Below, piece after piece: positions 48,375 to 51,746 of a DNA stretch of 64,000 bases. The DNA is taken from NCBI GenBank assembly GCA_003216835.1, contig QCIF01000005.1, positions 1 through 64,000 of the forward strand. The letters run 5' to 3'. Source of the stretch: Prochlorococcus sp. AG-402-K10. GTDB taxonomy: Bacteria; Cyanobacteriota; Cyanobacteriia; PCC-6307; Cyanobiaceae. The translations under genes and the position numbers were made by a program. The notes under the pieces are model-generated. The model was not told where the DNA came from, searched no databases, and saw only the letters and a list, made by a program, of their open reading frames with translations. Each line of letters starts with the position of its first letter. Positions within the stretch are counted from its first letter, which is position 1.

Positions 48375-49601
48375 TTATATGCTAATTATTCTTTCCATTG
48401 CATCAATAACTTTTTTTCGAGAGTTAAAGGCTGACAAACGGAAATAACCTTCTCCTGACAATCCAAATCCGCTTCCAGGAGTCCCTACTACATTTGCTTT
48501 TTCTAGCAGATAGTCGAAAAAGTCCCAAGAGGTCATTTGATCTGGAACTTTTATCCAAATATAAGGAGCGTTATCCCCACCATATACGGTAAAACCTGCC
48601 TTCTGAAGTTTATTTTTCATAATCTTGGCATTTTCCATATAAAAACCAATCAGATCTTTCACTTCTTTTTTACCATCAGAAGAATAAACCGCCTCAGCTC
48701 CCCTTTGAACAATGTAGCTCACTCCATTAAATTTAGTGGATTGTCGCCTATCCCAAAGAGACCATAAATCAATTTTTTCACTTTTTGAATTCAAACCTGA
48801 AAGATTTTTAGGGATTACTGTATAAGCACATCTTACTCCTGTAAAACCAGCATTCTTTGAAAAGGATCTAAACTCTATAGCACAATCCTTTGCTCCCTCT
48901 ATCTCATATATTGAATGAGGAAGATCCTTATCTTGAATAAAGGCTTCATAAGCGGCATCAAAAAGTATTAATGAATTGTTTTGGTTTGCGTAATCAACCC
49001 ATTTCTTCAAATCTACTTTAGTAATTGTTGCTCCAGTAGGATTATTAGGAAAACAAAGATATACAATATCAACTTTACTCGAAGGTATTTCAGGCAAGAA
49101 ATTATTTTCTTCATTTATTGGGAGATAAATTAAGCCCTGATAAGTTCCATCTTGGAGAGACTCTCCAGTTCTTCCAGTCATCACATTACTATCTACGTAA
49201 ACTGGGTACACAGGATCTGTTACAGCAATTGAATTATTATTACCAAGAATGTCTAAAATATTACTACTGTCGCATTTTGATCCATCTGAAACAAAGATTT
49301 CCTCTGGAGATATTTGACAGCCTTTTGAAATAAATTCATTATCGGATATTTTTTCTCTAAGCCAGGGATATCCTTGTTCTGGTCCATAACCTTTAAACCC
49401 ATCTTTTGTTCCCATCTCATTTAAGGCTTTACTCATTGCATCTCGGCATGATTGAGGTAATGGTTCTGTTACATCGCCAATACCAAGCTTAATAATGTCA
49501 CTACTACTATTATTCTGAATATAGGCATTAACTCTTTTAGAAATTTCAGGAAATAAATATCCTGCTTTTAGTTTTAAATAATTTTCGTTTACTTGAACCA
49601 C
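48375..49601 (-). CDS. dapL: LL-diaminopimelate aminotransferase
   Basis: PLP enzyme that makes LL-diaminopimelate directly from tetrahydrodipicolinate, the short lysine and peptidoglycan route of cyanobacteria and plants. It has 408 residues. [39 protein letters not shown] and the PLP lysine in [20 protein letters not shown] are all seen. The C-terminal [10 protein letters not shown] binds the carboxylate. The gene is read toward clpS and diverges from rne across the long rne leader. Confidence 0.96.
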
Positions 49602-49683
49602 TTTAGAGCAAAATGAAATTTAATCTTTAATAAGAATAATGGATCAATGTGCTTTAGTGATAATTAAATGTTAAAATAATACT

Positions 49684-49716
49684 AGTTATGATTTAATTAA
49701 AATAATAATCATAGCT
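49684..49716 (+). promoter_or_regulatory. Hairpin in rne leader
   Basis: AGTTATGATT and AATCATAGCT pair over 10 bp (one G-U) across an AT-rich loop of 13 nt. No T-run follows, so it is not a terminator. Its 5' end coincides with the start expected from the TAAAAT box, which would make it a 5'-end protective stem. Confidence 0.45.
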
Positions 49717-49751
49717 TACAATCAATTATAAATTGTTTGAAATTCCTCTAA

Positions 49752-49815
49752 AGCTAGTATAAGTAGCATAATTTAACTGCTAATAATTATTTAAAAAAGT
49801 CAAATAATCCTAGCT
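49752..49815 (+). promoter_or_regulatory. Predicted three-way junction RNA in rne leader
   Basis: An outer stem AGCTAG/CTAGCT (49752-49757 with 49810-49815) encloses two inner hairpins: TAGCA/TGCTA (49764-49768 with 49778-49782) and ATTATTT/AAATAAT (49786-49792 with 49802-49808). The three nested pairings fill the segment with little unpaired sequence, ending 86 nt before the rne ATG. Paired by eye; energies not computed. Confidence 0.4.
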
Positions 49816-49901
49816 AAAAATAATTGCTCATCGATTAAATAAAAATTAAATTATTTAATTTTAAATGATTTTAAAATCCAAAACCTTCTTAAATTTACTT
49901 T

Positions 49902-51746
49902 ATGTCTCAGCAAATTGTCATAGCTGAGCAGGCGCGAATTGCAGCACTACTCACAGATGATCGAGTTGATGAATTAATCGTCGCACAAGGTCAATATCAA
50001 ATTGGGGATATTTTCTTAGGAACTGTTGAAAATGTTCTTCCTGGAATTGATGCTGCTTTCATAGATATTGGTGAAAGTGATAAAAATGGTTTTATTCATG
50101 TCTCAGATCTAGGTCCATTAAAACTTAAAAAAGGTGTTTTAGGTATTACTGAATTACTAGAGCCAAAACAAAAAGTTCTTGTACAAGTGATGAAGGAACC
50201 TACTGGAAATAAAGGACCTAGACTTAACGGAAATATCTCAATACCTGGGAAATACTTAATTTTGCAACCTTATGGACAAGGTGTAAATATCTCTAGAAAA
50301 ATTAACACCGAGACAGAAAGAAGTCGCTTAAGAGCTCTCGGAGTTTTAATAAAACCACCCAGCACAGGTATACTATTTAGAACAGAGTCAGAAAATATAA
50401 AAGAAGAATTAATCATTGAAGATTTAGAAAATTTAATTCAAAAATGGGAAGAAATTTTAAAATTATCAGAGAATTCTAATCCGCCAAATTTAATAAAGCG
50501 AGATAATGATTTTTCCCTAAAAATATTGAGAGATCATGTTAATTCAGCAACTAAAAAAATCATTATAGACAATAAATTATTAGTAGATAAAGCAAAAGAC
50601 TTTTTAAAAAGTAATGAATCTAATGTAGAAATTGGATTCCACGATAACGACTTAAACGAACATATTTTAGAAAAATACGAAATTAAGAAAACTATTCAGA
50701 AATCTCTTCAACCTAGAGTAGACCTACCTTCAGGAGGTTATATAATTATTGAACCAACTGAAGCCTTAACAGTAATTGATGTCAATTCTGGATCTTTTAC
50801 AAGATCCGCAAACTCAAGACAAACTGTTTTATGGACAAATTGCGAAGCAGCACTTGAAATCTCAAGGCAAATGAAATTAAGAAATATTGGAGGAGTTATC
50901 GTCGTAGATTTTATTGATATGGAATCCAGAAGAGATCAATTCCAGTTACTTGAACATTTTACTTCAACCATAAAGGATGATTCTGCAAGACCTCAGATTG
51001 CTCAGTTAACTGAATTAGGGTTAGTAGAATTAACCAGAAGAAGACAAGGTCAAAACATATATGAATTATTTGGGCAGAAGTGTAGTTATTGCAATGGATT
51101 AGGACATGTGGAGAATTTATTGAATTACGAAAATTATAATTTAGCAAGCAAAAATATTGGGGGTCAACTTAATAAATCAAATACTGCAAAACCTCAAGTA
51201 CTAGACAATATAGCGTTAATTGATAAGCAGGGGAAAATAGTTGAAAAAGAATTGCAGAACACTAATAATTCAAATAAAGAAGATCTTCCTAATAAAAAGA
51301 AAAATGATGATGATATCTTGACATCTAATGCTAAAGAAAAAAACGTAATATCTATGGATCTTACTATTGATGAGAAAATTGTTTACAGTCAGTTAGGTAT
51401 TAATCCACTAATAAAATTAGGGAAAGAATATATAACTAATAATAATCATGTACTTTTAAAGGAGGATGAAAATAAAGAAAAACAAGCTCTTGTAAAAAGC
51501 ACTAAAAAATCAACAACAAAAAAATACACGAAAAAACAAAGTAAGCAAATCTTAAAATCAGAGGTGCAAGAAGAGATTGAGGAGAAAAGTAGCGATGAAG
51601 AAGTTAATACTATAAATACATTACCTAAAATAATTAATGAAAACGAGGAAGTTGAAGTAATAGACAAGGAAAGCGAACTTGAACTTACAGATGAGATAAA
51701 TAATACAAGAAAAAAAAGGCGAAGATCTTCAGCAAGTATTGAATAA
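49902..51746 (+). CDS. rne: Ribonuclease E
   Basis: 614-residue RNase E/G family endoribonuclease that controls mRNA decay. An N-terminal S1 domain (about 35-125, [24 protein letters not shown]) is followed by the DNase I-like catalytic region with [10 protein letters not shown] and VVVDFIDME carrying the metal Asp residues, and the zinc-link [10 protein letters not shown]. The C-terminal ~200 residues are charged and disordered, and end in [12 protein letters not shown]. That matches the Arg-rich nonapeptide through which cyanobacterial RNase E binds PNPase. rnhB overlaps its last 8 bp. Confidence 0.96.

Follow-up and report, generated by a model that had tools for sequence, protein, structure and literature searches.

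In the Prochlorococcus genus to which MED4 belongs, the rne (RNase E) mRNA starts with a hairpin of 9–10 bp, H1, which selection has clearly kept as RNA. The window, i.e., the whole stretch of 64,000 nucleotides that was analysed, lies in a 1.53-Mb Prochlorococcus assembly of this genus, with AG-363-P06, AG-409-A22, and AG-436-O11 as the nearest named relatives. The first-pass annotation of this DNA had proposed structured RNA in the rne leader, composed of a 5′ hairpin followed by a three-way junction. The hairpin has found strong support, whereas the junction is not a genus-wide functional unit and is at most a trait of the closest kin of the window's genome. The features of the locus are collected in Table 1.

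Table 1. Features of the rne promoter, leader, and gene in the window.
Feature	Position	Strand	Basis
Main rne promoter, −10 element TAAAAT (most relatives: TGTTAAtAT)	49672–49677	+	near-invariant columns
Equivalent of MED4 TSS1 (−220)	49682 (C49682)	+	PMC9692554, aligned via L143
H1, 5′-terminal hairpin, 10 bp, 13-nt loop	49684–49716	+	fold z, pairing, substitutions
Equivalent of MED4 TSS2 (−200), inside the H1 loop	49702	+	PMC9692554, aligned via L143
AU-rich conserved linker 3′ of H1, putative RNase E cleavage zone	49717–49735	+	low substitution counts
P2, 5′ strand, window register	49730–49744	+	15-bp helix in minimum-energy fold
Predicted three-way junction	49752–49815	+	chance-level beyond nearest relatives
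P2, 3′ strand, 30 nt ahead of the start codon of rne	49857–49871	+	minimum-energy fold, complementarity
rne, RNase E, 614 aa	49902–51746	+	NCBIfam matches

The rne product matches the NCBIfam model "RNase E, cyanobacterial" with an E value of 3.6e-198, a match that is yet below the curated cut-off of that model, and the match to the Rne/Rng family TIGR00757 lies above cut-off. The divergent neighbour (48375–49601) encodes LL-diaminopimelate aminotransferase (dapL), and the gap of 300 nt between dapL and rne houses the rne promoter and the AT-rich leader of ~220 nt, which is present upstream of the coding sequence as had been claimed. Between the −10 element and dapL a strongly conserved block, GTGCTTtAGtGgtgATTAgATG (49648–49672), was observed, which is perhaps promoter DNA common to rne and dapL. 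The end of rne overlaps by 8 bases (51739–51746) with the next open reading frame, which has a TTG start and resembles ribonuclease HII. In one relative (L171, G024:C1:1373169-1374168) rne matches as two overlapping pieces in different frames, and this split is a frameshift or an assembly error. Two other readings of the leader were dismissed. A short upstream open reading frame (ending LKVV and stop) has an ATG that is not conserved, an in-frame stop in MED4, and no third-position pattern, while a transcription terminator found no GC-rich stem with a U-run to support it. A promoter-like TATAAT on the minus strand (49725–49730) is judged window-specific as relatives have ATTTCA at that site.

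The start sites of rne were reported for MED4 as TSS1 at −220, TSS2 at −200, and the phage-induced TSS3 at the G of the ATG (PMC9692554), distances which are possibly rounded. The MED4 leader of our set (L143, rne at G033:C1:1440558) fits the published MED4 coordinates exactly; the Pi+ segment start, 1,440,570, lies 10 nt past the G of that ATG. Through this leader the long 5′ UTR of rne obtains a mapped start, TSS1 being aligned with a position 5 nt downstream of the −10 element. H1 starts 2 nt past it, within ~3 nt of the transcript start, so that the earlier placement of the hairpin at the expected transcript end was right to ~2 nt, and a start downstream of 49815, which the same annotation had considered, does not agree with the published site. 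Since the TSS2 position falls in the H1 loop, transcripts from TSS2 would be without H1.

For the comparison, 233 rne upstream regions of the same genus were gathered, of which 168 were distinct and 158 remained after a 95% identity cut, along with 84 usable regions from other members of the family, i.e., LL Prochlorococcus, marine Synechococcus, and their relatives. Folding was expressed as z against shuffled sequence. Substitution events were placed on the tree and subjected to a binomial test, with the kept-pair expectation derived from the general substitution spectrum. A second, independent pairing count employed 29 divergent leaders and 500 shuffles.

The two arms of H1 (49684–49693 and 49707–49716) appear in the minimum-energy fold, and the 36 nt that open the transcript gave a mean z of −4.64 in the 62 leaders tested, with all values below −2. 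In the 158 non-redundant leaders 98% of the H1 pair cells are formed. The stem events on the tree comprise 73 pair-preserving and 12 pair-breaking changes, a preserving share of 86% versus 29% expected (binomial p 2e-27), which confirms the 10-bp hairpin of the first-pass annotation. The second count revealed 96.6% pairing with 7 double-change cells, equalled by none of the 500 shuffles, and pairing fell to 21–67% when the partner strand was slid by 1–3 columns. Double changes were observed at A49684–U49716, G49685–C49715, and A49691–U49709; in the deep lineages L170, L171, and L201 the outer stem switches from A-U to G-C and from G-C to A-U. The U-G pair 49686–49714 occurs in 146 of the 158 leaders. 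The tolerance of G-U pairs together with the rarity of A-C mismatches means that the constraint acts on RNA and not on a DNA palindrome. A conserved stem thus encloses a variable loop, and the 5′ arm, which varies even less than the 3′ arm, is conserved in sequence beyond the needs of pairing. It is H1, therefore, by which the leader carries a selection-conserved RNA structure.

The caution that short stems arise by chance in AT-rich DNA was well placed. The plus strand of the window, over which this control was computed, has 2.4 stems of at least 9 bp in each kb on average, so that H1 would be unremarkable in one sequence and conservation alone separates it from the junction. An R-scape-like scan of all pairs with a tree-based null gave no pair above background, H1 included, a scan which is without power as the signal of the clades prevails and H1 shows very little variation. 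An H1 regulon was also sought and rejected: the strict exact-type pattern, which misses the H1 of most relatives, has 1 match in the window's genome, at rne. In the linker, the consensus fold predicted another hairpin, H2 (UUUCAA/UUGAAA), but 43 breaking versus 7 preserving events led to its rejection, and the linker at this place is retained as conserved sequence only, without supported structure.

The three-way junction folds in the window as had been described, with a z of −1.27 and 19 of 200 shuffles folding equally well; the whole 132-nt stretch (49684–49815) reaches −2.0. In relatives the mean z of the junction region is −0.18. Breaking events exceed preserving ones in the outer stem (67 versus 23) as well as in the inner hairpins (41 versus 15 and 64 versus 10), and pairing in the 29 divergent leaders amounts to 68.8% versus 67.0% after shuffling. 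A conserved outer stem with both inner hairpins was sought in the relatives and not found. Folding energy against shuffled controls and compensatory changes across strains, the two tests that had been proposed for the leader, thus speak for H1 and against the junction. One could nevertheless regard the entire leader, three-way junction included, as a sensor specific to the window's clade, since the same fold is predicted in L001–L003 and in part in L004, where a single C to U change keeps a pair. We consider this very improbable: z is only −1.2 to −2.1 in those genomes, the changes are too few to test, and neither L013, the next relative, nor the remaining genus has the fold.

A long-range helix, P2, is a better candidate to take the place of the junction. 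In many relatives the block UUUGAAAAUCGUUUAAA near +55 is complementary to UUUAGAUGAUUUUCAAA near −35, and the helix measures 11 bp in MED4, 15 bp in a shifted register in the window, and up to 19 bp in relatives. The mean best helix across relatives is 13.2 bp versus 6.6 bp in shuffled sequence. The leader without H1 folds with a mean z of −2.31 versus −0.86 for 11 control upstream regions, and the long-range pairing is favoured in 89% of leaders. In the 29-leader count 89% of the P2 cells are paired, and as many double-change cells as were observed came up in only 1 of 500 shuffles. At one G-C pair several lineages have independently changed both bases, to A-U or U-G (p 0.04, tree-based null). 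The P2 substitutions overall, 41 preserving versus 99 breaking with 27% expected, reveal no bias toward pairing. P2 is therefore likely but unproven, being well supported by folding and complementarity and moderately by covariation.

The window's genome departs from the genus in both P2 blocks (49726–49744 and 49867–49880). A49728 and the loss of a C after 49872 break the common register and leave another in place, with a probability of only 0.38. In L170, L171, and L201, where H1 is kept via double changes, P2 is absent (predicted probability 0), and these deep lineages are useful for dating both elements.

Alternatively, the conserved block that precedes the start codon may be part of the internal phage-activated promoter. 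In a broader form of this idea the conserved blocks are DNA elements, with the 5′ arm of H1 (TATGAT/TATGGT, TAnnnT) serving as the −10 element of TSS2, the pre-start block belonging to the phage-activated promoter Pi, and the hairpin being secondary. The MED4 starts at −200 and at the ATG, the greater invariance of the 5′ arm, and the position of the block 49867–49880, 24–37 bases upstream of TSS3, are consistent with it. Nevertheless, DNA elements would hardly account for an H1 stem in which 86% of changes keep pairing and G-U is accepted where A-C is rare, and the spacing of 10 nt from TATGAT to TSS2 is long. Taken together, we regard this explanation as unlikely.

Outside the genus an extended −10 element, TG[CT]TAnnnT, lies ~240–470 nt upstream of rne in the 84 leaders, and start sites there were placed from this element. 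In 64 of the 84 leaders, all shorter than 300 nt, a stem-loop starts 4–10 nt past the −10, with a mean rank of 0.09 among shuffles and 48% of cases in the best 5%; the same signal is much weaker (15%) in the 20 longer leaders. The 5′ stems are unrelated, e.g., GACG/CGUC, GGAUAUG/CAUAUCC, and GGUUA/UAACC. Segments of 66 nt from LL Prochlorococcus and Synechococcus gave a mean z of −0.79 in the shuffle test, to which the 5′-anchored test is the more informative complement. By these sequence comparisons, a 5′-terminal stem-loop at the start of rne, with the start inferred from the −10, recurs in marine picocyanobacteria despite unshared sequence.

We note here that in LL Prochlorococcus and marine Synechococcus (L115–L141, L265–L324) an upstream radical SAM gene (TIGR03960/TIGR03936) forms the rne −10 element TG[CT]TAnnnT with its final Cys codon and its stop codon, the stop codon being present in 83 of 84 leaders and an open frame of at least 40 aa in 54. 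This gene was not found in 10 tested genomes of the window's genus, where the rne −10 has nevertheless retained TGTTAA (window 49670–49677).

The mRNA of ompA carries a stabilising stem-loop at its 5′ end, and H1 is similar to stem-loops of this type in that its stem lies no more than a few bases from where the transcript starts; it differs in sitting on the nuclease's own mRNA and in being conserved in sequence. H1 could then be a 5′-end stabiliser that sets the half-life of the mRNA without sensing RNase E, any feedback arising from unstructured AU-rich sites of the leader. The stem at the exact 5′ end, the variable loop, the stem-loops of unrelated sequence at the equivalent site in LL Prochlorococcus and Synechococcus, and the expected lack of H1 on TSS2 transcripts fit with this proposition, but the near invariance of the H1 sequence goes beyond the needs of a simple stem and the linker 3′ of H1 is likewise conserved. 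This explanation is held here as a tentative one.

The best explanation, to which we assign a probability of roughly 0.55, is that H1, the AU-rich linker, and P2 take part in RNase E feedback on the rne mRNA; H1 itself is probably involved in the control by RNase E of its own production. H1 would leave the 5′ end with only ~2 unpaired bases and thereby block decay that depends on this end, and it would present the conserved linker to RNase E as an internal site. Abundant RNase E would cut the leader, with loss of the mRNA, while the mRNA would survive when RNase E is scarce. P2 may join the far end of the linker to the region before the start codon and so close the AU-rich middle of the leader. 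In a more elaborate and, in our opinion, doubtful version, the genus would possess a unique two-part sensor: the choice of start site would decide on the presence of the protective H1 on the mRNA, and P2, shifted in register between clades yet paired, would close the domain targeted by RNase E over the translation start. Cleavage inside this domain would then lower both stability and translation.

The rne leader of E. coli is longer and has internal sensor hairpins. The enterobacterial rne 5′ UTR (hp1–hp3, RF00040 rne5) is similar to the leader studied here in being a structured RNase E leader with proposed self-control, while in Prochlorococcus the hairpin is at the very 5′ end of an AU-rich leader of ~220 nt. 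The RF00040 covariance model has no match on the leader at the gathering threshold, nor up to E 10, and no other Rfam family was found on it, a CRISPR-repeat match at chance level (E 1.5) being all that the search to E 10 gave.

Further likenesses come from cyanobacteria. RNase E of Synechocystis binds to short hairpins and cleaves the AU-rich sequence that directly follows them; it also cuts its own rne leader at a U-rich site, with autoregulation reported (PMC10989929). The Synechocystis 6803 leader thus resembles the present one as an RNase E-cut leader and in the substrate type of a hairpin with a downstream AU-rich site; it differs in its length of 583 nt and its U6 cleavage site. The MED4 leader is orthologous, with TSS1, TSS2, and reported autoregulation; RNase E of MED4 is feedback-controlled via the rne 5′ UTR, which holds an RNase E cleavage site (PMC9692554). 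The analogy with enterobacterial autoregulation drawn in the first-pass annotation is plausible, with H1 as a putative sensor, but the regulatory idea is not new, having been published for MED4 and Synechocystis (PMC9692554, PMC10989929). H1 and P2 are not described in the available text of PMC9692554, and their conserved architecture, which is absent from Rfam, appears to be undescribed in the literature compared.

What was known is the autoregulation of cyanobacterial rne, and the conserved architecture of its leader appears to be new. During phage infection of MED4 a leaderless rne transcript bypasses the autoregulation exerted through the leader (PMC9692554, PMC10989914), and it is by this leaderless mRNA that a phage evades RNase E control in picocyanobacteria (PMC9692554). 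As a small, defined, and conserved element on the normal mRNA, H1 offers a concrete point of attack for the questions of how RNase E is sensed by the host and of what it is that the phage evades.
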